Positions 2,368 to 20,119 of a DNA stretch of 29,799 bases are shown here, one piece after another. Below the pieces are notes generated by a model. That model worked only from the letters and a program-made list of their open reading frames with translations. It was not told where the DNA came from and did no database searches. Position numbers and translations under genes: made by a program. Where the stretch lies: the IMG/VR virus record IMGVR_UViG_3300032241_002113, positions 1 to 29,799 of that record; one strand, 5' to 3'. The DNA is from a virus. Each line of letters opens with the position of its first letter. Within the stretch, counting starts at the first letter, position 1.

Positions 2368-2814
2368 ATGGAAACCACACCTACCCTGCTTGGGTTTATA
2401 ACCTTCTGTCGTCAAATTGTTGGCATCCCTCAAGTTGTTATGGGCGATGAAGATCCTGCATTTCCAACAGCCTTACAATATGCACAACTGTGGATTCCCA
2501 CAGAACTGCAATTGTTTGCGCCAGAACTTTACGTAGCCGCCGTGTACAACTGGGCGGCTTCGTATCTTATTCAATTTAAGCAAGATCCCACCGGCCAGGT
2601 TTTTTTTACCAACGCCCGATCTGCTTTTGGTATCACAAACTTCGTCCCCGGTGTCATTAACTCCGCGCATAACGAAGCAACAAGCCAAACCATGACTATT
2701 GGCAAAGGGTTACAGAATATGACCCTAACGGATTTGCAGCGCGTCAAAGATCCGTATGGGCGTTCCGCGTTAGCTATTTTGCAGGACTTGGGCACGCTCT
2801 GGGGTCTTACCTAA
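2368..2814 (+). CDS. putative head-tail adaptor protein
   Basis: The product has 148 residues. Its helical layout, with the stretches QYAQLWIPTELQLFAPELY and AAVYNWAASYLIQF, resembles the helical connector-adaptor proteins (DUF4054/gp6-like) that sit under the portal. The position, after the capsid gene and before neck, sheath and tube, fits. The stop codon overlaps the next start (TAATG at 2812-2816), so translation is coupled. Family membership is a judgement from the pattern of hydrophobic residues and gene order. Confidence 0.7.
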   Translation: METTPTLLGFITFCRQIVGIPQVVMGDEDPAFPTALQYAQLWIPTELQLFAPELYVAAVYNWAASYLIQFKQDPTGQVFFTNARSAFGITNFVPGVINSAHNEATSQTMTIGKGLQNMTLTDLQRVKDPYGRSALAILQDLGTLWGLT

Positions 2815-3242
2815 TGCAATTGCATATCGGGGTATACGACGTACCAGAGCCGGAATTTAACGGCAAGAGCGTTACCACGACTTATCAGGTGGCTCAAGAT
2901 TTAGAAGCTATCTATCATTTGTTTTCGCATTTTGTGGACGATCATATCGACCACATGACTAAATTAGTCACTAAAAGTGTTCAGCAGTCGCTTCATCAAC
3001 ACATCGACGGCGAAGAAGAAACGACGGAAGGCTTAGATACGGCGTTGTCAGGGATTACTCTGACTTTTCAAAACTACGTCGTAACAGGTCAATTAGATGA
3101 CCGGCAAAGAGGCGTGCCTACTCGGGCTGCGAGAGAAGGACGGCGACGACTTAAAGGGCCTACCTATGAAGGGCCACCCCGTCCCTCGTTTGATGATACG
3201 AGTACTTTCGTTAATTCACTGCATACGTGGGTTGAGAAGTAA
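2814..3242 (+). CDS. putative neck or head-completion protein
   Basis: The 142-residue product starts at an ATG overlapping the previous stop and itself ends in a TAATG overlap with the next gene. The first half contains a His/Asp-rich helix (HFVDDHIDHMTKLV). The C-terminus carries GVPTRAAREGRRRLKGPTYE and then RPSFDDTSTFVNSLHTWV. A 'P-S-F-x-D-T-x-x-F-x-x-S' ending is common in phage neck and tail-completion proteins. It probably bridges connector and tail tube. The exact role, neck or tail terminator, cannot be fixed from sequence. Confidence 0.65.
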   Translation: MQLHIGVYDVPEPEFNGKSVTTTYQVAQDLEAIYHLFSHFVDDHIDHMTKLVTKSVQQSLHQHIDGEEETTEGLDTALSGITLTFQNYVVTGQLDDRQRGVPTRAAREGRRRLKGPTYEGPPRPSFDDTSTFVNSLHTWVEK

Positions 3243-4309
3243 TGGCTACGCTGACCGAATCCACACAGCAAGCGGGAGCGAACGATAAAGCCGCAGGGCT
3301 TATTGCCGCTATTGGTCTGCTATCCGGCGAACAGAATTACACGTTTGAGTTGTATCAGCGTTTGGTGCTGCCCATCGATGGGTTTGTTTTTTGGGTTAAA
3401 GCTTCAGCCGTTAACCCTGCTTATTTGAATCAGCAATATTCGGCACTTTATAGCACCCCTCCGCTTAACGCCGCCGGATACGATGCTAACGAGCCAGTAT
3501 CCAATTTAACGCCTGCACAAGAAACAACATTTTCTTTTCAAACCGTGGGCAGCTTGCATACGTCGCAAGCGATATCGGAAGAAGAAAGCACTACTTATAC
3601 TTCGCAAAGAATTCTATTTACGACTAAGACGCAAGTAGATTTTTTTGCGGCTATTGCCCCAGACCAACTGTATATCACCACGATACCTAATGGATCGCGT
3701 GTGGCTTTTGGATCGCAAGCGAATCATTATCACTTAGCTGGGCTATGGCATTACACGGGTAAGGCGGTCTATTCGACTCTGTTTTCACAGATTATCGACG
3801 ACCCGCGCACGCTTGCAGTAAATACTCCAATCGTTTCAAATTCGCTGCCTTTTTGGCTTGCCATGAGTACACCCTCGGTACCCGTATACCCAAGCTATTT
3901 GTCACCGCTTAATCAGATCCCGCCATACGTAACGGCTGATATCAAAAGCACGACAGCGATGGGGCAATCTCCGCTTTATACGCAAGCGAGCGCGCAAAGT
4001 CAGCTAGTAACCGACGTAATTCGGTTTACCAGTTACGGGCTGAATAATGATGCAATATTAGACTTCCAGCGTATGATCTTGCAAAATTCCCTATTGTCAG
4101 AGGACTACGGCATTATGAATATGCCTGTGCCTGTTGATGGTAAATTACCGCAAGTCGAATTTCAGGTTATTGCACAGATGAAGACTATGCAGTTGCAAGT
4201 GAATTATTATCAAAATCGTGCTCGTAATCTGGCACGACAATTGATTGATAGTGCGCTGATTAACATGAATCCTATACCCCCATCAATGGGTACTCCCTTC
4301 TACGCTTAA
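3242..4309 (+). CDS. unknown virion protein between neck and sheath genes
   Basis: A 355-residue protein translated from an ATG coupled to the preceding stop. No enzymatic motif is visible. It is rich in Ser, Thr, Gln, Asn and aromatic residues, typical of structural proteins. The C-terminal part ends in a Gln/Asn/Arg-rich helix (VNYYQNRARNLARQLIDSAL). Similar-sized proteins of unknown function occupy this position in other myoviruses with DUF2184-type capsids, so a virion component of the neck or capsid surface is likely. A fibre or whisker at the neck is another possibility. Confidence 0.65.
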   Translation: MATLTESTQQAGANDKAAGLIAAIGLLSGEQNYTFELYQRLVLPIDGFVFWVKASAVNPAYLNQQYSALYSTPPLNAAGYDANEPVSNLTPAQETTFSFQTVGSLHTSQAISEEESTTYTSQRILFTTKTQVDFFAAIAPDQLYITTIPNGSRVAFGSQANHYHLAGLWHYTGKAVYSTLFSQIIDDPRTLAVNTPIVSNSLPFWLAMSTPSVPVYPSYLSPLNQIPPYVTADIKSTTAMGQSPLYTQASAQSQLVTDVIRFTSYGLNNDAILDFQRMILQNSLLSEDYGIMNMPVPVDGKLPQVEFQVIAQMKTMQLQVNYYQNRARNLARQLIDSALINMNPIPPSMGTPFYA

Positions 4310-4645: not shown

Positions 4646-5752
4646 ATGCCTCAGATTGTCACAGTAAATGTTACTCAGGTAGTCGCCCCGACACCTTCGC
4701 AGCTTCAAAAGACTGGTGCGTTGGTAACTCAGGGCGGCACTAATGGCGCGGCAAACACTGTCACGCTGCTTACTCAGTTATCGGATTTGGCCGCTATTAT
4801 CGGTACCGGCGCAGCAGCCACCGAGCTGACTGCAATGGCAACGACGTTCTTCGCTCAAGGCAGCACACAAGCCGTGTATGTGCTTGAGTTGGGGGCAGGC
4901 ACTACGGCTGCGGGTGTAAGTGCGTTAAACACGTATATCACCAATTCGCCGCCAAACCTTCGTTTCTATTCGTACTTGTTGCCTTCTGAATGGGACATTG
5001 AAACGACCGCGCATACGTTCGTAAGTACGTTTGATAGTCCAACGTCAGAAACGTATTTTTACGTAACGACTACTACGGCTACTTACGCGCCGTGGCAGGG
5101 CAATAAATCCGTATTTGCGGTCATTCAAAACCCTAGCGCACCTGTTACCGAATTTAGTGCCGCAGCTTTCTTTTACGTATCGTTAAGCTACGCGCCAAGT
5201 TCCATTAACTTGGTTGCGCCTATGCAGTTCTCGTATCTGTATGGCGTAACGCCGTACTCTACGTTAACCAGTGCTAACCAGACTACGTATTTAAATGCGG
5301 GTCTGAACTGGGTAGGAACGGGCGCGCAAGGCGGCATTAGCAATACGCTGATCGTTGGCGGTCAATTTATGGACGTGAATGTCAGCAGTCCACAGGGTGG
5401 TAATCCGTTCAACTATTGGTACGCGATTGATTGGCTATCAATTAACGTCGCTATTGCTTTAGCTAATGCGGTGATTAATGGCAGCAATACGCCAACCAAT
5501 CCGCTGTATTACGATCAGGCGGGTATCAATACGCTTCAGACGGTAGCTCAAACTACGGTTAATAATGCTATTGCTTTCGGCCTTATTATTAACCCAGCTA
5601 AAGTTAATGCTATCCCTTACGCTACGTACATTAAGCAGAATCCTGGCGATTACGCTATCGGTCGTTACGCCGGTCTGTCTTGCACGTTTACCCCACTCCG
5701 TGGCTTCAGTCAGATTGTTATCTATCTGACCGCTACGAATTTCCCGGTTTAA
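4646..5752 (+). CDS. contractile tail sheath protein
   Basis: The 368-residue product resembles the short DUF3383-like tail sheath proteins. It begins MPQIVTVNVTQVVAPTPSQL, has an early segment on 'going over a list' typical of sheath proteins (LLTQLSDLAAIIGTGAAATE), and a C-terminal helical segment around residues 260-315. An AAGGAGG ribosome site at 4631-4637 indicates high expression. It is followed by the tail tube gene, the canonical order in contractile tails. This gene is the main reason for calling the phage a myovirus. Confidence 0.88.
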   Translation: MPQIVTVNVTQVVAPTPSQLQKTGALVTQGGTNGAANTVTLLTQLSDLAAIIGTGAAATELTAMATTFFAQGSTQAVYVLELGAGTTAAGVSALNTYITNSPPNLRFYSYLLPSEWDIETTAHTFVSTFDSPTSETYFYVTTTTATYAPWQGNKSVFAVIQNPSAPVTEFSAAAFFYVSLSYAPSSINLVAPMQFSYLYGVTPYSTLTSANQTTYLNAGLNWVGTGAQGGISNTLIVGGQFMDVNVSSPQGGNPFNYWYAIDWLSINVAIALANAVINGSNTPTNPLYYDQAGINTLQTVAQTTVNNAIAFGLIINPAKVNAIPYATYIKQNPGDYAIGRYAGLSCTFTPLRGFSQIVIYLTATNFPV

Positions 5753-7018: not shown

Positions 7019-9271
7019 ATGGCAGAAGAAGCTAAATCAGTCATTACCATTGATGTCGATGCCACAGCATTCGATAACTTTAAAGCGGTATTTGACCAAT
7101 TTCAGGCTTCACTGGATAAGCTTCCTGCTCAGTGGGCTGCCGTTAAGACGGCGCAAGCAGATACCCAAAATGCGGGTGTAGCCTCGGCTCAAGCAGCGGC
7201 TGATAAATTAGCTGAAATAGCTGACAAGCTATTTAAACGAGACGAGGCTCGGCAGGCGGCGACTGAGAAAGCTTCCGCTAAACGACTGGAAGATAATTTA
7301 GCCAAAGCTCAAACTAAAGAAGAAAAAGAAGCACTACTGGCTCAAGAAAAAGAACGCAAGCAAATAGCTGCGGATCAAGCGGCGGCTGAAAAAGCTGCTA
7401 AGAAAGCCGATGCCGAGCTTGAAAAACAAAAAGAAAAACAACGCAAGCAAGACGATGCTAATGCAAAATCGGAAGCTAAAAAAGCTGAAAAGCTTCTTAA
7501 TGAACAACGTCGAAAAGACGATGCTGACGCTAAAGCGGCAACTAAAGCGGCTGATAAAGCGCAAAAAGAAATAGAGAAAGATCGAGAAAAGCAACGCAAA
7601 AAAGAAGATGCGGATGCTAAGGCTGCGGCTAGCGCTTTGGAAAAAACGCAGCGAGAGATCCAAAGCAAAGAAGATAGCGAGCGCCGCGCGGAAGAAAAGA
7701 AAGAAAGCGATGCCCGTAGAAAACACGAAAAAGATTTAGCTAAAGCTAAATCTAAAGAAGAACGTGAGTTACTACGCACTCAAGAGGCCGCGCGGAAAAA
7801 AACTCTAGCTGAAGAAGCGGCAAACAAAAAAAAAGCGGAAAAGGAAGCGCGTTCTCGTCAGCAGGAAGCTAAAAAGCAAGCTGATGAAGAGAAAAAACAA
7901 TTGGACGAACGTCGTCAGCGGTTTTTAGATTTTGCAGTTAAAGGGCTGGCAGCTTTTGAAGGCTTTGAAGCTATCGCTTCGATACTGCAAAAAGCATATG
8001 AATTTGCAGAAAAGACAGCTAATTTGCGTCTTGAGTCTCGCTCGTTAGGCGTTACTCCTAATCAATTGCAAAACATTGAGAATAACTACGGCACGGTCTT
8101 AAGCAGTCCAAAAAGTCTGTTGGAAGGTATTGCTAATCTTCAAACCAGTAATGCAGGGTTAAATAAGCTTAGGATTATTAATCCGTCTATCACTACGGAA
8201 GAAGCTAAATACGGTTCAGCCGCTGATCTATTCCCTAAGATAATAGAAGGCATACGCGAACAAGCTAAAAAGAATCCTACTACGGATTACGCTAAAGCTT
8301 TAGGCATAGATCAACTGCTTTCGGAAAGTGATCGTCGAGCGCTAGTTAATGCTCGACAAGAAGAAATCGATCAGATTAAAGAAACCGTGGGTCTTCAAAA
8401 ATCATTGAATAGCACTACAGATAATAATTTAAAAATCTGGAGTGACTTATATCAAACAATGAAATATTTCAGCACTAGTCTTTATAACTTAGTGCTAGAA
8501 GATTTAGCTCCGGTAGCTAAAATCTTAGAGACTATTTTGCGAGGTTTAGCCGAACTTATGGATGTTATGCGTAAAATCTCAACTTACGAAAAACACGCCA
8601 TAGGAAAAGCAGCTAGCTACATACCCCTTGTCGGCAATTATATTAATGAAGCACTTGGTGGCGCAGAGGCTAATAATCCAGCCGATCAATCTCGGAGTCC
8701 AACAACCCGATTAGACGCGATGGAGGCGGCTCAAAAAGCGGCTGCGGCTTCAGCTGCTACCGCAGCAGCCCCTCAAGCGGCTCGAGTAGCAGCGGATGCG
8801 GCAGTTAAAGGATTATCTCGCGCTGAACGCAACCATAATCCAGGTAATTTAACATCACCCAACCGGCTATTCCGTTGGTTAAATCCTGACAAAGTGGATC
8901 CGCAAGGATTCCGTAAATTTAAAACTGATGAAGAAGGCTTTAAGGCCATGAAAGATCAGTTAATGATTTACAAGAATATTTACAAAAAAGACACTCTTAG
9001 CAGCATTATTAGTCGCTGGGCTCCACCTAGCTCCAATCCAACGGGCGCTTATATTCAACGAGTGTCTAAAGAAACGGGTTTTGACGCTAACGCTAAATTG
9101 AATTTAAATGATACGACAACCATCAGTCGATTGATGGCTGCAATGGCTCGAGTAGAAAACCCCCGCAGTCAGTATTCAGCGCATCAAGTAGAATTGATGA
9201 TCAATAACAATACAGGTGGTAGCGCGGTCATATCGGCTTCTGCCATGTCTAGCGCTATGGGGATGCGGTAA
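7019..9271 (+). CDS. tape measure protein with C-terminal hydrolase-like domain
   Basis: A 750-residue product. Residues about 45-310 are a nearly uninterrupted Ala/Lys/Glu/Gln coiled coil, followed by a hydrophobic segment (LAAFEGFEAIASILQKAYEF) and a helical tape-measure core with LRLESRSLGVTPNQLQNIEN. From about residue 600 to 715 it carries a compact domain with NPGN at 607-610 and WAPP at 667-670. The same motifs at the same spacing occur in the endolysin candidate at 19054, so local cell-wall opening during DNA injection is likely. The ATG at 7019 is preferred over the TTG at 7007. At roughly 0.15 nm per residue the tail would be near 100 nm. The stop overlaps the next start. Confidence 0.87.
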   Translation: MAEEAKSVITIDVDATAFDNFKAVFDQFQASLDKLPAQWAAVKTAQADTQNAGVASAQAAADKLAEIADKLFKRDEARQAATEKASAKRLEDNLAKAQTKEEKEALLAQEKERKQIAADQAAAEKAAKKADAELEKQKEKQRKQDDANAKSEAKKAEKLLNEQRRKDDADAKAATKAADKAQKEIEKDREKQRKKEDADAKAAASALEKTQREIQSKEDSERRAEEKKESDARRKHEKDLAKAKSKEERELLRTQEAARKKTLAEEAANKKKAEKEARSRQQEAKKQADEEKKQLDERRQRFLDFAVKGLAAFEGFEAIASILQKAYEFAEKTANLRLESRSLGVTPNQLQNIENNYGTVLSSPKSLLEGIANLQTSNAGLNKLRIINPSITTEEAKYGSAADLFPKIIEGIREQAKKNPTTDYAKALGIDQLLSESDRRALVNARQEEIDQIKETVGLQKSLNSTTDNNLKIWSDLYQTMKYFSTSLYNLVLEDLAPVAKILETILRGLAELMDVMRKISTYEKHAIGKAASYIPLVGNYINEALGGAEANNPADQSRSPTTRLDAMEAAQKAAAASAATAAAPQAARVAADAAVKGLSRAERNHNPGNLTSPNRLFRWLNPDKVDPQGFRKFKTDEEGFKAMKDQLMIYKNIYKKDTLSSIISRWAPPSSNPTGAYIQRVSKETGFDANAKLNLNDTTTISRLMAAMARVENPRSQYSAHQVELMINNNTGGSAVISASAMSSAMGMR

Positions 9272-9873
9272 TGATTAATTCAGGACGATCTAATTTTCAA
9301 CGTACATTTCAGCTATCCCCCATTTTCTTTGTTAATGGAGTAGCGGGGGCGGGTAATGCTGTGCCGGTATCTGTGTACCTACAAAACGGGTACACCCCGC
9401 CGTCTTTAGATCAATATTTTGCCAATTTTAAGCCGATGCCTGGTGGCGTTATAGAGAGCTGGGGTATTGCAGAATATCCTTTAGCGGCTCTTACGGTCGC
9501 GGCCAATGCTGTGGTGCAAAATCCTTTATCGATTAGTATGCTGATGGTCTGCCCTGTGCAGAATAATCCGCAAAACAGTTACGCCAAAAAATTGGCAACC
9601 TTGAGCGCGTTAAAAGCCACCATTGATAATCACATATTGGGTGGGGGCTGGTTTGACGTTTTAACTCCGGCTTACTATTACTCAGGCTGTTTATTAACCA
9701 GTTTAAAAGATGTTACGAACAGTGACACGAAACAAGTGCAATTGCAGTATCAATGGGATTTTACCAAGCCTCTTATTACTGAAGAACAGGCAGGGGCGGT
9801 ACAATCGACATTCTTAAACAAAGTGTCGATGGGATTGCAAACTAGCGGCCAGTCATGGGGGCCTTCAGGATGA
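9271..9873 (+). CDS. baseplate/hub-proximal tail protein
   Basis: The 200-residue product starts at an ATG overlapping the tape measure stop (TAATG). It contains GVIESWGIAEYPLAALTVAA and a long C-terminal beta segment (KQVQLQYQWDFTKPL). In minimal contractile tails the gene after the tape measure encodes a tube-end or hub-adjacent protein, and size and composition agree. Its stop (TGA 9871-9873) overlaps the next start. The role is assigned by position; I do not recognise a named domain with certainty. Confidence 0.7.
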   Translation: MINSGRSNFQRTFQLSPIFFVNGVAGAGNAVPVSVYLQNGYTPPSLDQYFANFKPMPGGVIESWGIAEYPLAALTVAANAVVQNPLSISMLMVCPVQNNPQNSYAKKLATLSALKATIDNHILGGGWFDVLTPAYYYSGCLLTSLKDVTNSDTKQVQLQYQWDFTKPLITEEQAGAVQSTFLNKVSMGLQTSGQSWGPSG

Positions 9874-12544: not shown

Positions 12545-13960
12545 ATGGCCGATTTGACACCTCCCTACACACCGACACCTCCGGCAGCATTAGCGGCTGA
12601 AGCGCTGGCGATTGCTTCGGGGCTAGCTCCGGGTTTAACCAGTTTACCGCCTAATCTGATTGGCGATATGAACGCCACCAGCGCGGGGTCGTTGGCTATT
12701 ACGAATACGGCTTTTGTGGATCTGGTGAATTCCATCAGCCCCTATACCGCCAATCCTACGATTCTTTACCAACTAGGCGCGGTTTACGGCGTTCAGCAAG
12801 GCGTGGGCTATAACACGCAAGTTGACGTGGTTTTTAGCGGTACGCCTGGTTTTGTTATTAACGTAGGTTTTATTGTCAGTGACGGCACGTATCAATACGC
12901 TGTACAGGACGGCACCGTTATTGGGGCTGGCGGTACTAGCAATCCTACGTATTGTCTAGCTACGCAAGCGGGGTCTTGGGCGGTACCGGCTAACTCGGTG
13001 ACGCAGTTAATTACCAGCGTCCCTTCGGGTATCACGTTAACGGTCACCAACCCTACGCAAGGCATTCCCTCGCAAGCAGCACAGACTTTAACTGACTATC
13101 AGGTACAAGTTATCCAAGCTGGCCGAGCGGTCGCCACAGGGCTTCCTACGCTGCTTAGGACGGCTTTGCAAAATGTGCCTGGTGTTGTACGCAACCAGAT
13201 TGCTATTCGAGCCGTAACCAGCGGCTGGGAAATTATTGTCGGGGGCGGCGACCCTTATGCGGTGGCTTACGCTATCTACAGTGCGTTGTTTAACATTATA
13301 GATCTCCAAGGCAGTCAGCTTTTTGTAGGTGCAGGGTACATTTCCGGTACTACGCTAACCGTAACAACGGCCACCTCCGGCGTTCTGGGTATCGATTCTC
13401 AAATCTACGGGGTGGGAGTGACCGCAGGCACTCGCATAACCGCACTGTCGCCGACTTCGCCGTTTACGGGCACTGGCGGGACGGGTACGTATGAAGTCAG
13501 CGTTTCGCAAACGGCAGGCAGTTCGGGATCCCCAATTGCTATTAATTCAGGCGGCACGACTCAAAGTATTACTATTGAGGATTACCCTGATTCGTATGTT
13601 ATAGAATTTGTTAATCCGGTAGGGCAAAGCGTTACGGTAATTGCGTATTGGTTAACTATCGCAGATTCTAATTTTGTGGCTAACGCGGTAGTGGCTGCAT
13701 TAGTAACGCAACCGTTAGCCGATTACATTAATAATATTTACGTAGGGCAACCTATCAGCCTCATTGAGTTGCAGACGGTATTTATTAATGCAACCGCCGG
13801 AACTATCGCGCCTACTAATTATCTATCGCTTGCGTTTAATGTGTTTATCAATGGCGTAGAAGTACCGCCTGAATCGGGGACGGTGTTGATTTACGGAAAT
13901 CCTGAAGGGTATTTTTCGACCACGGCTTCCGCTATTACCGTGATTAACTCCGCGCCGTGA
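12545..13960 (+). CDS. baseplate J protein (Mu gp47-like) with inserted beta domain
   Basis: A 471-residue wedge protein. The N-terminal region ([20 protein letters not shown]) and middle region ([20 protein letters not shown], then [10 protein letters not shown]) are typical of baseplate J proteins, which link hub, fibres and sheath initiator. Residues about 260-333 form an inserted Gly/Thr-rich unit ([42 protein letters not shown]), and the J sequence resumes at [19 protein letters not shown]. This insert resembles a widespread exposed beta-repeat of phage tail proteins. A GAAGGGT site precedes the ATG, and the stop overlaps the next GTG start. Confidence 0.85.
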
Positions 13961-14569: not shown

Positions 14570-16840
14570 GTGACTGAATTACTTTTTGCGAATAACGCGC
14601 ATTCGACCCTCGCCTCTAGCATCGGGCCTTCAGATACCTCTTGTTTCCTCGCTGCGGGTACGGGATCTAAATTTCCGGCACCAGGCGCAGGTCAAGGTTT
14701 TTACATGACCTTTAATGATGCCGCGACAGGGTTGCTGTCCGAAATCGTTTTTGTCACGTCTATATCGGGCGACGAAATTTTAGTAATGGATCGCGCTCAA
14801 CAAGGCACGGCAGCGCAATCTTGGCCGTCGGGAACTTTAGTATCTCAATATTACACAGCGTATGACGCAGGGTCTTTTTTGCAAGGCGCTTCAGCCGGAA
14901 CGGGTATTGCGGTATCAACAGCAGGCGGTGTAGCGACTATTGCTAACACAGGTGTTACTGAACTTCTTGCAGGGTCTAATGTTGTTTTAAGTGGCGCTAC
15001 AGGCGCAGTCACTATTTCGCTAGAAGCTAACTCCGGTGTTAGCGAAATTTTAGCGGGTGCGGGTATTTCAGTTAATCAAAATACCGGCAATGTCACAGTA
15101 ACCAACACAGGCGTTCTAGAATTAACTGCTGGTACCAATACTACTATTACCGGCAACAATACTAATTTGACCATTAGTAGCGCAACCCCACCGTCAGGAC
15201 AAAATAGTTACGTTCAAATTAATGTTGACGGAGCGTTTGGTTCTTCTAACTTATTGACGTTTGCTAACGGTCAGTTGGAAGTGGGCGCTATTGGCACCAC
15301 CGCAGGGCAATTGATTTTAGCTGGCGCTCCGGTGGGGCGTGTGTTGATCACACCTTCCAATTCTGAAGGCAGCACTGAGTGGGAGTTAGTATTACCCCCA
15401 ACTGCCGGTGTTGCGGGATACGTATTGTCTACTGACGGTACCGGCGTTACTTCATGGGTAGCTGGCGGGGGCGGGGGCGGCGGCGTTTCTCAAATCCTTG
15501 CAGGAACCAATGTCACCATTAGTCCTAGCAACGGACTAGGAACAGTAACGATCAATGCAGCAGGTGGTGGAGGCACTCCGGGAGGAAGTCAAGGAACCAT
15601 CCAATATAATAATGCTGGCAGTTTTGCTGGCGATCCTAATTTTACTACTAATGGCTCAGGCGCAGTTGTCGCAAAATATTTAACAGTTTATTCGGCTGGC
15701 GATCTTTCTGTTCAAAGAACTTTTTCGGCAGCATCAGAAGGAGCGGGAATTCAGTCGGCGCAATTTTCGGCGTATGACGATTCTGCACCCAATGTTATTT
15801 TCAATAGTAATGCTGGCGGCGCGGGTCTTGCCGGAACTATTGTTCAAATCGCAGGCGGAACAATATGGGATTTACATTCCACAACGACCGGATTTGCAAT
15901 TGAAGACAATTCAAGCGGTTATAGTGTTTTAAAAATTAATACAGACGACAGCATTACATTAGGAACCGCATCGGGTGGCCCATTTGGCGCTGGCACATTG
16001 AACGCCACGGGTCTTTACATCAATGGCGTAGCGGTAGGTGGCGGCTCTCCGGGCGGCGCATCTTTAACCCTGCAATACAATAATAGCGGCAGCTTTGCTG
16101 GATCTAGCCTCGCACAAGGCGCGGATGGCGGAATTTATAATACAGCGATTGGGCAGGATCACGGCCCTTCATCTATCAGCATTGGCCGATATTATTTTGG
16201 TGGTTCAGAAGACGCTTATGGCGGCGCGATCTTCATGAGTGGCGTATCGGGTGATGTTTGGGGCGGTACAGTAGGTGGGCAAGGTAAAACCGTAGGACTT
16301 GAAAATAAATACAACGGCGGCAACGGTTATATGTTGTTTACCGTTAGTTCGTTTTCAACCCCTACGGCTAGTATTCAGGTCGATGGTTCATTGTTTGCCG
16401 GTGCTGGACTGCCTACGGCTCCTTTTGGCGTTGATGCAACCAGTACTGGCTATGTAGTAGCAGCAAATGGCGTATACGTTGGCGTTCCAGCTAACGGAAC
16501 CAATAGCGGATTGCTTAAATTAGCTAACGCAACTACGTCCTACGTTATTACTATAAATGCTGGATCTACAGCAGCCGATTATCAAATTGTTTTACCCACT
16601 GACGCAGGTTCAGCAGGTCAAGCTCTAATCAACACTGGGGCAGGTGTTACAACTTGGGGACAGCCTAGCAGCCTGTTTACCGTGTCTACGCTTCCGTCGG
16701 CAGCAAGCTCGCAGGGAGTTCGCTCAATGGTCAGCGACTCAACCGTAGCCGCCGTCGGGAGTTTTGGCGTAGCGGTAACTGGCGGGGGAGCCAATTTTGC
16801 CCCGGTCTGGTGCGATGGAACCGCTTGGTATATCGGCTAA
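14570..16840 (+). CDS. tail fibre protein 1
   Basis: A 756-residue product starting at GTG with CGGGAG upstream. Residues 1-105 form an attachment domain also found in the fibre at 17096 (shared ANNA, TL, EIVxVT, RxQQGTxAQSW, NFLQ/SFLQ). Then come four copies of a beta repeat of about 24 residues (TGVTELLAGSNVVLS, SGVSEILAGAGISVN, TGVLELTAGTNTTIT, GGVSQILAGTNVTIS) and three variants of a 'QYNNxGSFAG' repeat. The C-terminus is a tip module (MVSDSTVAAVGSFGVAV, then DGTAWYIG) repeated in the ORF at 18365. It probably makes a trimeric host-binding fibre. The tip and repeats look mosaic. Confidence 0.85.
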   Translation: MTELLFANNAHSTLASSIGPSDTSCFLAAGTGSKFPAPGAGQGFYMTFNDAATGLLSEIVFVTSISGDEILVMDRAQQGTAAQSWPSGTLVSQYYTAYDAGSFLQGASAGTGIAVSTAGGVATIANTGVTELLAGSNVVLSGATGAVTISLEANSGVSEILAGAGISVNQNTGNVTVTNTGVLELTAGTNTTITGNNTNLTISSATPPSGQNSYVQINVDGAFGSSNLLTFANGQLEVGAIGTTAGQLILAGAPVGRVLITPSNSEGSTEWELVLPPTAGVAGYVLSTDGTGVTSWVAGGGGGGGVSQILAGTNVTISPSNGLGTVTINAAGGGGTPGGSQGTIQYNNAGSFAGDPNFTTNGSGAVVAKYLTVYSAGDLSVQRTFSAASEGAGIQSAQFSAYDDSAPNVIFNSNAGGAGLAGTIVQIAGGTIWDLHSTTTGFAIEDNSSGYSVLKINTDDSITLGTASGGPFGAGTLNATGLYINGVAVGGGSPGGASLTLQYNNSGSFAGSSLAQGADGGIYNTAIGQDHGPSSISIGRYYFGGSEDAYGGAIFMSGVSGDVWGGTVGGQGKTVGLENKYNGGNGYMLFTVSSFSTPTASIQVDGSLFAGAGLPTAPFGVDATSTGYVVAANGVYVGVPANGTNSGLLKLANATTSYVITINAGSTAADYQIVLPTDAGSAGQALINTGAGVTTWGQPSSLFTVSTLPSAASSQGVRSMVSDSTVAAVGSFGVAVTGGGANFAPVWCDGTAWYIG

Positions 16841-17095: not shown

Positions 17096-18355
17096 ATGAC
17101 TATCCTAACCTACGCGAATAATGCCACTACCACGTTAGCGGCAGGCATTACTTCCGGCCCCAGCCCCACCGCTATTACGGTAGCTTCCGGCACGGCTTCG
17201 TTCTTTCCTGCAATCACCACAGGGCAAGCCTTTTACTCCACCATAACTCATGCTGACGGAAGTCCTGGCAATGAAATCGTATTAGTGACGGCAGTTAGTG
17301 GTGATACTTTTACCGCCGTTCGAGGTCAGCAGGGAACTACGGCACAAAGTTGGTTAGCCGGATCCATTTTTAGTCAGTTATTGACTGCCGGTGATATGCA
17401 GAATTTTCTTCAGTCAGCCGCTATCTTTGGTAACCCTACGGCGCTGATTGGATTAACGGCGGTTAACGGCACCGCCACTACGGCTATTCGATCTGATGGT
17501 GCGCCTGCTTTAAGTCAATCTATTGTGCCAACGTGGACAGGAAATCACACGTTTAATGGCACAGTGACCATGAACAACGCTTTTAATTTCAACGCAGGAC
17601 ACAATGCCATATTTGGCGGCTCAATCCTGTACTACGGAAATTTGATAGCGCAAAGCTCGGCAGTCACCGATCTAACTACGACTAATGTTACGGGAACGGC
17701 CACCTTTAGCGGCACTACTTCGTTTAGCGGCACTACTTCGTTAGCCGCCACCAACATTAGCGGCGCTACAGCAATTAGCGGCGCGTTAACCGTATCGGCT
17801 AATGCCAATTTTACTACTACAAATAATACGACTATTAGCGGAACGCTAACGCTGTCGTCCACAGCAAGCACTACTGTCAATAACGGCGCGTACCTTAATT
17901 TTAATAATACTCCGACTTTTTCAAACGGATTTGAATTAAGCGCGGGAAATTTTACGATAGGCGGTTCGCTTAACAATTCTGTGTTGTATATGGCGGGAAA
18001 CACCGTTACTCGGTTAACGCCACCAACAACCGCAAATACGTATCTAGGTTTTAACGGAACGTCGTTAAGTTGGTTAGGATCAGGAACGGGTCAGCAATCT
18101 CTTTCCGCTAACGGATATCAGGTTCTTCCCGGCGGTTTAATATTGCAATGGGGTATTACCACTAACGCGCCGCCAGGTAATACGGTTTTTAATGTAAGTT
18201 TTCCAACAGCCTTTCCGAACGCTTGCTGGGGCGTGCAGTTAACTGCCACTCCGCAAAACGGTACGGTAAAAGTTTATAGTGTAGCTACCACGTACTTCTC
18301 TATGTCTAACGGCGATAGTGGCGATGGTACGTTCTGGTTTGCTTACGGTCACTAA
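17096..18355 (+). CDS. tail fibre protein 2
   Basis: A 419-residue product with an AAGGA ribosome site. Residues 1-105 match the attachment domain of fibre 1, for example EIVLVTAVSGDTFTAVRGQQ and GTTAQSWLAGS. The shaft is a Thr/Ser/Asn-rich beta repeat with FSGTTS units, encoded by an 18-base perfect tandem duplication. The C-terminal 90 residues (FNVSFPTAFPNACWGVQLTA, ending GDGTFWFAYGH) resemble the gp53-like receptor-binding tips of phage fibres. The phage may carry two fibre types with different tips on the same baseplate socket, or fibre 2 may be a shorter accessory fibre. Confidence 0.82.
   Translation: MTILTYANNATTTLAAGITSGPSPTAITVASGTASFFPAITTGQAFYSTITHADGSPGNEIVLVTAVSGDTFTAVRGQQGTTAQSWLAGSIFSQLLTAGDMQNFLQSAAIFGNPTALIGLTAVNGTATTAIRSDGAPALSQSIVPTWTGNHTFNGTVTMNNAFNFNAGHNAIFGGSILYYGNLIAQSSAVTDLTTTNVTGTATFSGTTSFSGTTSLAATNISGATAISGALTVSANANFTTTNNTTISGTLTLSSTASTTVNNGAYLNFNNTPTFSNGFELSAGNFTIGGSLNNSVLYMAGNTVTRLTPPTTANTYLGFNGTSLSWLGSGTGQQSLSANGYQVLPGGLILQWGITTNAPPGNTVFNVSFPTAFPNACWGVQLTATPQNGTVKVYSVATTYFSMSNGDSGDGTFWFAYGH
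17705..17740 (+). repeat. 18-base tandem duplication in fibre 2 shaft
   Basis: TTTAGCGGCACTACTTCG occurs twice head to tail (17705-17722 and 17723-17740), encoding FSGTTS twice. The copies are identical at nucleotide level, which suggests recent slippage or strong constraint. Unit gain or loss would lengthen or shorten the shaft without a frame change. Confidence 0.9.
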
Positions 18356-18364
18356 GGAACAATC

Positions 18365-18613
18365 ATGCCTATTAATCCATCTAATCCCCCTAATCAAATT
18401 ACCGAATCGCAAGCAGCGATCCCGGTTTACATTACTACAGGCCCTTTAACTACAGTGGCGGGACTGCCCCTAGCTTCGGCTAGCACGGGAGCCAGTCGCA
18501 TGGTGAGCGATTCCACCGTAGCAGGAGCCGGAAATTTTGGACAGATTGTTGTAGGCGGCGGCGCAAACGTCGTTCCGGTGTATAGTGACGGAACGCATTG
18601 GTTAATTGGATAA
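18365..18613 (+). CDS. small ORF resembling a detached fibre tip
   Basis: An 82-residue product with an AAGGA site before ATG 18365. Its C-terminal 45 residues match the tip of fibre 1: MVSDSTVAGAGNFGQIVVGG and PVYSDGTHWLIG against MVSDSTVAAVGSFGVAVTGG and PVWCDGTAWYIG. The first 35 residues (IPVYITTGPLTTVAGLPLA) have no attachment domain. It could be a separately made tip or tip-binding adhesin, a chaperone for fibre folding, or a relic of a lost fibre gene. The intact frame and good ribosome site argue that it is expressed. Confidence 0.75.
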   Translation: MPINPSNPPNQITESQAAIPVYITTGPLTTVAGLPLASASTGASRMVSDSTVAGAGNFGQIVVGGGANVVPVYSDGTHWLIG

Positions 18614-18815
18614 AAAATCGACTGCCGCTCTGCCGGTTTATATCGTATCGGGTTCGGGATCTGGTGTTACTCTAATTGTCGCAAGCACTAAAATTACGGT
18701 TAGTCCTATCGGCGGCACGAGCGTAGTAACTATTAATTCAACTGGCGGCGGCACGGTAAAATGCCCCGTTTTTGATAATGGAACCGCATGGTCGCGGATA
18801 GTTTTAACCACCTAA
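18606..18815 (+). CDS. second small fibre-tip-like ORF, TTG start
   Basis: A 69-residue frame opening at TTG 18606, which overlaps the stop of the previous ORF (TAA 18611-18613); no ribosome site of its own is visible, so translation would rely on coupling. ALPVYIVSGSGSG echoes AIPVYITTGPL of the preceding ORF. GVTLIVASTKITVSPIGGTS matches the fibre 1 shaft repeat (GVSQILAGTNVTISPSNG). CPVFDNGTAW resembles the tip ending. It is probably a degenerate copy of the same module, expressed or decaying. Confidence 0.5.
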   Translation: MDKKSTAALPVYIVSGSGSGVTLIVASTKITVSPIGGTSVVTINSTGGGTVKCPVFDNGTAWSRIVLTT

Positions 18816-18829
18816 AAGGAAAATTGACA

Positions 18830-19054
18830 ATGGCAACGATTGATTTAACCGTGCAGGAAGCACAGGCCGTTTTGGATTCGATTCTGGCAGCAGATCGCAC
18901 CAACTGGGGCTTTGTGGTGCAGGCTGTGAGCGTGTTTAACAAGCTGGCGGCGGCTTTCCCAGTCCAGCAGGCTCCGGCTCCTGTTGACGCTTCTGCTGAC
19001 GCTTCTGCTGACGCTTCTGTTGACGCTTCTGCTGACGTTCCTGCTAGCAGCTAA
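18830..19054 (+). CDS. small protein with Asp-Ala-Ser repeat tail
   Basis: A 74-residue product starting at ATG 18830, nine bases after AAAAGGA. Residues 1-45 are helical (LTVQEAQAVLDSILAADRTN). The tail after residue 50 is Pro/Ala rich and then repeats DASA/DASV (encoded by five 12-base units). It precedes the endolysin gene and overlaps its start (TAATG at 19052-19056). No membrane segment is present, so it is not a holin. The function is unknown; a flexible acidic tail on a small helical domain is what can be seen. Confidence 0.7.
   Translation: MATIDLTVQEAQAVLDSILAADRTNWGFVVQAVSVFNKLAAAFPVQQAPAPVDASADASADASVDASADVPASS
18983..19042 (+). repeat. five 12-base tandem units in coding sequence
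   Basis: The unit is G(T/C)TGACGCTTCT, read as (V/A)-D-A-S. Copies start at 18983, 18995, 19007, 19019 and 19031; the last is altered to GCTGACGTTCCT. Copies 2 and 3 are identical, as are 1 and 4, a higher-order pattern suggesting repeat expansion by slippage. Confidence 0.92.
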
Positions 19055-19452
19055 TGTCTCGCGGATTGAAAATCAATAACCCAGGGAACATTCGTCGTTC
19101 TTCTGTGGTTTGGCAGGGTCAGGCTGATGTTCAGCCTGATCCTGATTTCGTGGCGTTTATTTCGCCACTTTACGGCATTCGAGCTTTAGCTCGTAATCTG
19201 ATTACTTACGCAAGCTACGGTATTGATACGGTTTCAGAGATCATTACCAAATGGGCTCCACCGGAAGACCACAACGATACGCCTAGTTACATCGCTGACG
19301 TGTGTCATGCTTGCGGCGTTCAACCTGACGAATTACTAGACACTGTAGAGATGCTGCCTCACATCATTCCTGCGATCATTAAACGAGAACAAGGCAGTCA
19401 GCCGTTTTCGGATGAACTTATTGCTCAAGCCATTGAGTTAGCCAAATGGTAA
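19054..19452 (+). CDS. endolysin candidate (NPGN/WAPP muralytic type)
   Basis: A 132-residue product with no signal peptide. It starts MSRGLKINNPGNIRR; NPGN is at 9-12, FVAFISPLYGIRALARNL at 32-49, and ITKWAPPEDHNDTPSYIADV at 64-83. These motifs define a small phage lysozyme-like family often annotated 'structural protein P5'. It would cut peptidoglycan at lysis. It is followed, with overlapping stop and start, by the holin and spanins, which supports the lytic role. The same domain ends the tape measure protein. The exact bond cleaved cannot be told from sequence. Confidence 0.8.
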   Translation: MSRGLKINNPGNIRRSSVVWQGQADVQPDPDFVAFISPLYGIRALARNLITYASYGIDTVSEIITKWAPPEDHNDTPSYIADVCHACGVQPDELLDTVEMLPHIIPAIIKREQGSQPFSDELIAQAIELAKW

Positions 19453-19655
19453 AAAACTTTTGCATACAATGGTGGAAAAACCACAAGGTTAAGACGCTAG
19501 GATTAATCGCCATGATGCTAACGTATCTACATCAAAATTTTACTCAAGTAGCCATTTTGTTTGAGAATCACCCTAAGCTATACGCTCTTTGCGGGTACGG
19601 TTTTGGTGCGTTAGTTACCGTTTTTGGTTTTTTAGTAGCAGCAAAAGATCCATGA
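19446..19655 (+). CDS. holin candidate, two membrane segments
   Basis: A 69-residue product whose ATG overlaps the endolysin stop (ATGGTAA at 19446-19452) and whose stop overlaps the Rz start (ATGA at 19652-19655). A basic, aromatic N-terminus precedes two hydrophobic segments at about 16-38 (LGLIAMMLTYLHQNFTQVAI) and 45-66 (YALCGYGFGALVTVFGFLVA). Two segments, small size and place between endolysin and spanin genes fit a class II holin or pinholin, which would permeabilise the inner membrane to trigger lysis. Confidence 0.8.
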   Translation: MVKNFCIQWWKNHKVKTLGLIAMMLTYLHQNFTQVAILFENHPKLYALCGYGFGALVTVFGFLVAAKDP

Positions 19656-20119
19656 TCGGTTTTATCCAATACTGGTGGATTGGCGTAATCGCGTTAATGC
19701 TTGCCGTTATTGGGGTAGAACATTGGCAAGTAGAGACGTACAGAGCTAAAGTCATAAGCCTGCAAACGGCTATCGCGGATAGTAATCAAAAGGCGCTTGT
19801 TGAACATACGCAAGCGCAAAAAATCACGGACACGATTAATGAACAATATCAAAATAGCCAAACCACTGTTAATCAGCTTAGTAATGATATTCGTCAGTGG
19901 GTGCTGCGCTACGAAGCCCAACGTGCAGCCACGCCCCATCCTAGTACCCCCGCCCCCGCTCCTGCTAACCCCGCCGGAAGCCTCGCCCCTGCTACTCCAG
20001 TTAGCCCAACGGTCAACGCAACCGACGAACTGATCGCTAATACGATAGCGGCTTGCGAGCGCGATAGCGCACGGTTTAAGGCGCTACAAGATTGGGCTCG
20101 AGAACTGTCGTCACCGTAA
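19652..20119 (+). CDS. Rz: i-spanin (Rz)
   Basis: A 155-residue product with an N-terminal membrane anchor at about 4-22 (IQYWWIGVIALMLAVIGVEH) followed by a periplasmic coiled coil to about residue 90 (QTAIADSNQKALVEHTQAQK), a Pro/Ala linker (PSTPAPAPANPAGSLAP) and a C-terminal helix. This is the layout of Rz i-spanins, which with Rz1 fuse inner and outer membranes at the end of lysis. The Rz1 gene is nested within it in another frame. The last nine bases overlap the 3' end of the minus-strand gene that ends at 20111. Confidence 0.88.
   Translation: MIGFIQYWWIGVIALMLAVIGVEHWQVETYRAKVISLQTAIADSNQKALVEHTQAQKITDTINEQYQNSQTTVNQLSNDIRQWVLRYEAQRAATPHPSTPAPAPANPAGSLAPATPVSPTVNATDELIANTIAACERDSARFKALQDWARELSSP
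19839..20033 (+). CDS. Rz1: o-spanin lipoprotein (Rz1), nested in Rz
   Basis: A 64-residue product wholly inside the Rz gene in a different frame. The ATG at 19839 gives a signal peptide (IKIAKPLLISLVMIFVSGC) with lipobox FVSGC; Cys22 would be lipidated and anchored to the outer membrane. The mature 43 residues are proline-rich (PRPILVPPPPLLLTPP), as in lambda Rz1. An ATG-less extension back to 19797 exists but lacks signal character. The pair implies a host with an outer membrane. Confidence 0.88.
   Translation: MNNIKIAKPLLISLVMIFVSGCCATKPNVQPRPILVPPPPLLLTPPEASPLLLQLAQRSTQPTN

Follow-up and report, generated by a model that had tools for sequence, protein, structure and literature searches.

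A small gene downstream of the tail fibre genes in an uncultured contractile-tailed phage joins a family-restricted peptide tag to a fibre-tip module and probably encodes an accessory virion protein

The window analysed here is the whole 29.8-kb viral record IMGVR_UViG_3300032241_002113 (29,799 nucleotides) of an uncultured contractile-tailed phage, with a tail sheath gene (phrog_205, 4646-5752) and a Baseplate_J-like gene (12545-13960) that falls just under the Pfam cut-off. Downstream of the J gene, two fibre genes are followed by a set of small genes, a putative lysis region and the replication genes. The major capsid protein (602-1627) shares up to 88% identity with the capsids of dozens of IMG/VR contigs and about 50% with its counterparts in isolated phages, among them Chronis, PdC23, Rac-SA53 and Yersinia vB_YenM_29.18. 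Searches with the J gene returned nine distant relatives and searches with the genes at 9271-9873 and 19054-19452 returned none; a near-identical relative was not found. Among the small genes, a 75-aa gene (18830-19054) has a tandem DASADAS repeat near its end and resembles, by eye, 64-69-aa genes near the fibres of relatives. Farther downstream, an Rz-like gene with an embedded second frame bearing a lipobox (Rz1-like) was read by eye at 19649-20119, where no Rz family was matched in Pfam.

The two fibre genes and the two small reading frames behind them, with all features described within them, lie on the forward strand. Fibre 1 (756 aa, 14570-16840) has an N-terminus that matches the tail fibre family phrog_8469 and the solved tail fibre 8jov, a shaft repeat at 15470-15571 and a tip module at 16673-16837. 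Fibre 2 (419 aa, 17096-18355) ends in the Pfam domain Gp53-like_C, a tip different from that of fibre 1. The N-terminal adaptor (phrog_8469/6427) and shaft present in both fibres are absent from the two small frames, which are thus not tail fibres proper.

The first small frame encodes 82 residues (18365-18613) from an ATG at 18365, with the ribosome-binding site AAGGAA (18354-18359) at a spacing of 5 nt. Its product consists of an N-terminal tag, MPINPSNPPNQITESQAAIPVYI (18365-18433), which is common to differently headed proteins in relatives, and a 55-residue C-terminal fibre-tip module (18446-18610) that closes with VPVYSD-GTHWLIG-stop, the canonical tip end. The motif NPP-x8-AIPVY, by which the tag-bearing set is defined in this analysis, is found near its N-terminus, and in alignment the invariant columns of the tip profile (G, N, P, V, D, W and G) are filled in both the 82-mer and fibre 1. 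Scored against the phage structural genes, codon usage reaches 0.287 in the annotated frame, compared with 0.071 in the best of the other five.

The second frame encodes 69 residues (18606-18815) and overlaps the first by 8 nt; it begins at a TTG (18606) with no Shine-Dalgarno sequence upstream. It comprises a half tag, STAALPVYI (18618-18644), a shaft repeat like residues 301-334 of fibre 1 in alignment (18651-18752) and a tip-like ending, GGGTVKCPVFDNGTAW (18744-18791), which lacks the canonical W-x-I-G end and does not close seven residues after VPVYxD. Aligned locally with residues 301-334 of fibre 1, it scores 98, where shuffled sequences reach 65 at most; its alignment to the 82-mer gives z = 6.4, and its codon usage is 0.247 in the annotated frame compared with -0.009 in the best of the other five. 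The first-pass annotation gave this frame a shared start, a repeat of the fibre 1 shaft and an ending like the tip, and was borne out in this. The start that it described as the same ALPVYI is indeed shared, but the 82-mer spells it AAIPVYI and the 69-mer AALPVYI, and the preceding PSNPPN half belongs to the 82-mer only, so that the 69-mer carries just the second half of NPP-x8-AIPVY. The 69-mer is a probable second member of uncertain expression: it may be weakly expressed, as its codon usage suggests, or a decaying gene, as its start site suggests. In the former case it would be a second, more divergent protein of the 82-mer kind, in which half a tag and a single shaft repeat precede a worn tip, and any translation would occur via coupling to the 82-mer. 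A programmed frameshift fusing the two frames was considered and is not favoured, since the 82-mer stop lies exactly at the canonical tip end.

The repetition of the fibre 1 tip in the 82-residue frame, also part of the original description, was confirmed at 33 identical residues out of 55 (z = 16.8 against shuffles), and on all of these scores the likeness of both frames to fibre 1 is not attributable to chance. Identity between the two tips by codon position is 0.69/0.67/0.29, and 22 of the 33 identical residues are spelled with different codons; because of this pattern and these synonymous spellings, the likeness has been kept at the protein level. The comparison points to an old relationship maintained by selection on the protein and, alongside the good ribosome site and codon usage, to purifying selection on the 82-mer. 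The 69-mer, with its TTG start, missing ribosome site, half tag and worn tip, might suggest that the locus holds functionless, decaying remains of a former fibre gene; however, the full tag, exact canonical tip end, good ribosome site and selected codon pattern of the 82-mer make this quite improbable. A homologous tip within one genome also led to the earlier idea of a reservoir from which fibre 1 tips are switched by recombination. That idea is contradicted by the DNA, in which the tips are 56% identical and nowhere agree for more than 8 bp in a row (10 bp when the whole fibre gene is compared). Moreover, the 82-mer tip is no closer to that of fibre 1 than to foreign tips, being 68% identical to the tip of an unrelated 641-aa protein, and we give the reservoir almost no credence.

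The same module is widespread in other phages. Tip searches yielded 55 proteins on viral contigs, every one of which ends seven residues after VPVYxD; 16 are long or cut-off, and the other 39 come from complete genes of 86-108 aa, of which 34 form a single 108-aa family with many near-identical members. At the one locus tested with PHROGs, a head-tail adaptor gene and a head-closure gene flank the 108-aa gene, with the same order seen by eye at two more, and the 86-aa gene examined directly follows a head-closure gene. The stand-alone 108-aa tip genes near 5800-6156 in L212, L197 and L216, from uncultured podovirus-like phages, have this placing between an adaptor gene and a head-closure gene. 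Such genes resemble the 82-mer in being small and separate, with the same end module and virion genes beside them, but differ in having unrelated N-termini, in belonging to other phage types and in gene position. Foldseek on viral models matched a 108-aa protein (E = 9.5e-4) and, mostly with weak E-values, tail fibres and EPS depolymerases of named phages. These fibres and spikes (tail fibres of Burkholderia phage AH2 and Microcystis LMM01; EPS depolymerases of Erwinia S2 and Rexella) have the same terminal module as the 82-mer, sharing the pattern LP..G.R..V.D...GGG.N.VPVYSDGT.W.IG at the very C-terminus, although the matches are structural, several with weak E-values, and the 82-mer is short, tagged and without shaft or fibre adaptor. 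Neither a profile search nor Foldseek on the PDB found a relative of the tip with a solved structure. By tblastn neither tip nor tag was found in annotated phages, perhaps owing to low-complexity filtering, since the structural comparison did reach named phages; in bacterial genomes neither was confirmed.

These comparisons show the tip on many unrelated phage proteins, always as their terminal module, and the separate small tip genes of other phages have at least four different N-termini, those examined adjoining virion genes. The 82-mer is, by the same comparisons, one more separate small tip gene and not a fragment broken off fibre 1. Thus, of the first-pass description of detached fibre-tip modules as small separate genes, the small separate genes stand, whereas the detachment does not: the protein has its own N-terminal module, common to unrelated proteins. 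The accompanying suggestion of trimerisation caps is consistent with a terminal-cap role, given the invariant end position in all 55 tips. Together, the findings indicate that small genes with fibre tips are recurrent and constrained rather than debris.

In relatives, the initial 23-26 residues of the 82-mer reappear in other genes, where they are joined to at least eight unrelated C-terminal heads. The most frequent is a 114-aa beta-type domain (G003, G006, G017, G073, G081, G084 and G085, with the start only in fragment G083); the others are of 138 aa (G009, C-terminus phrog_3030), 612 aa (G007, sub-threshold polysaccharide-deacetylase match), 198 aa (G007), 116 aa (G044, beside a GDSL-like 411-aa protein), 124 aa (G082), 109 aa (G080) and, with a divergent tag, 130 aa (G047, G048 and G069). 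Among ten tagged proteins including that of the window, tag pairs have a median z of 8.5 versus 0.5 for head pairs; as the set was gathered by tag similarity, the high tag scores are partly built in, but the unrelated heads are not, and only the two 114-aa alleles have related heads. Within the tag, identity by codon position is 0.72/0.81/0.40 and the codons differ at 164 of 293 identical residues, so it is the peptide that is constrained and not a DNA recombination site. An AlphaFold2 monomer model predicted no helix in the tag, at low confidence (pLDDT about 50), and the model of a 114-aa tagged relative, with a pLDDT of 48, was too poor to use. No description of the tag was found in family models or the literature, where searches for the motif and the phage group gave nothing specific. 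The tag also appears in other arrangements: a 54-aa gene consists of two tag copies and nothing else (L121 in G009, 9261-9425), and a 281-aa protein has two copies at its C-terminus (L122 in G007, 12843-13688), so the tag is not always N-terminal.

To survey its distribution, a DNA pattern for NPP-x8-AIPVY, blind to phage family, was scanned over all 2.9 million IMG/VR contigs. Twelve matched. Eleven have homologues of the capsid, J or fibre-adaptor genes of the window phage, and the twelfth, of 4.9 kb, shares its gene neighbours with G006 and is a fragment of that locus; capsid identity to the window drops to 51% across the set. The scan catches only close spellings, and looser tags elsewhere would be missed, but at this sensitivity the tag appears confined to the family of the window phage. 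Within that family most relatives have no detectable tag, which was seen in 8 of 50 records and hence is dispensable; it is absent from isolated relatives (three whole records and part of a fourth).

Like that of the window, most tagged genes follow the fibre genes, and at this place several relatives have intact tagged genes with other heads; the best explanation would be that the region behind the fibres is an exchange site, occupied in relatives by other tagged proteins. Two further features of this region were observed in relatives. In L126 (14359-15933) and L247 (8349-9923), the fibre region is separated from the tagged 114-aa gene by a gene for a 524-aa protein whose start looks, on reading, like that of a SAM-dependent methyltransferase. 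Also, a 137-aa gene (L163 in G017, 3591-4004; also L164 and L165) is the fibre N-terminal adaptor almost directly fused to a mini-tip, and this miniature fibre gene sits just upstream of the tagged gene. Other positions occur as well: the tagged gene of G082 is inserted in the head/connector module, between homologues of window genes 2368-2814 and 2814-3242, and those of G044 and G080 lie shortly upstream of terminase- and portal-looking genes. In Gordonia phage Charming, a small gene next to an esterase gene is related to the 114-aa head; a weaker match to this head (E = 0.01) is a gene of Halorubrum tailed virus 29 that immediately follows the capsid gene. In Pantoea phage PdC23, a tagless relative, an annotated decoration-protein gene directly follows the capsid gene.

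We propose, with a probability of roughly 60%, that the product of the 82-aa gene is a small accessory structural protein of the virion, built of two modules, a tag that would dock and a head that would be displayed. The extended, proline-rich tag would dock the protein onto a conserved virion component, inserting into or running along a repeated site. The displayed head, here a tip of the fibre 1-cap kind, would face outward, probably contacting the host surface, and would cap or trimerise as on fibres. A short peptide conserved in one virion family with varying cargo is the expected look of a docking signal, from which we infer docking itself. The gene positions in G082, G044 and G080, Charming, Halorubrum tailed virus 29 and PdC23 make capsid or neck somewhat likelier docking sites than tail or baseplate, while the majority of tagged genes, behind the fibres, would also fit a tail position.

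Small genes directly behind fibres, with a tip common to the 82-mer and fibre 1, are also what would be expected of a folding helper, as the first-pass annotation had offered, or of a trimerisation chaperone; like the products of Tfa or gp38 genes behind fibres, it would contribute tip or tag strands in trans while the fibres assemble, without having to remain in the virion. No chaperone family of the Tfa/gp38 type was matched by either frame in Pfam, PHROGs or NCBIfam, the fibre 2 tip is different, and in relatives the same tag is found on a 612-aa deacetylase-like protein, in the connector module and before the terminase, all of which renders this role unlikely. A second alternative is that tags bind tags, with the tagged proteins of one phage co-assembling into mixed trimers or hexamers rather than onto a core virion protein. 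Several tags per genome (four in G007 and three in G009), including the tags-only gene, would suit such mutual oligomerisation; but G003, G006 and G017 each have a single tagged gene, and the limitation of the tag to one virion family suggests an outside partner, so that we regard it, too, as doubtful. The head is a fibre-tip module and the genes lie between the fibres and the putative lysis region, where a soluble adhesin or decoy set free at lysis, coating hosts or debris, might be encoded. The diffusible adhesin proposed earlier found no support, however: no secretion signal was seen, the 82-mer has its own N-terminal module, in relatives carried by unrelated proteins, and a family-restricted tag on other virion-like heads would be left unexplained. 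This fate for the protein is highly unlikely.

Some accessory virion proteins are known to combine a fixed anchor with a displayed domain, and a docked, two-module 82-mer would work in a similar way. In the T5 decoration protein pb10, about 75 residues fold into a helical N-terminal anchor domain, followed by a proline-rich link and a displayed C-terminal domain (PMC5292684). The likeness to the tagged proteins, anchor plus proline-rich link plus displayed domain, is one of working and an analogy only; the pb10 anchor is helical and folded, whereas the tag has 23 residues and is not predicted to fold, which sets it apart from the pb10 type. The turret base and turret head of HFTV1, gp30/gp31, display a small beta protein and a glycan deacetylase on the virion (PMC12494034), a working similar to that suggested by the tagged deacetylase-like protein of G007 and the tagged protein beside the GDSL-like one in G044. 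Homology of the 114-aa tagged relative to HFTV1 gp30 was considered and rejected, with a phmmer E of 0.88 from one sequence and no match with a profile.

The 82-mer is thus, as far as sequence can tell, one case of an architecture of tag plus exchangeable head. A wider reading, which we put forward tentatively and at odds short of even, is that the tag serves this phage family alone as a portable virion-docking signal of 23 residues, which displays any head fused to it (fibre tip, beta domain or deacetylase) and whose genes move between fibre, connector and terminase neighbourhoods: a natural display system. If this were true, the phage would have a second set of fibre-tip modules placed elsewhere than on the fibre. 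A conserved 23-residue tag with non-conserved heads in one virion family would be a minimal natural docking signal, of use for phage display and as a handle to annotate small "hypothetical" virion genes.
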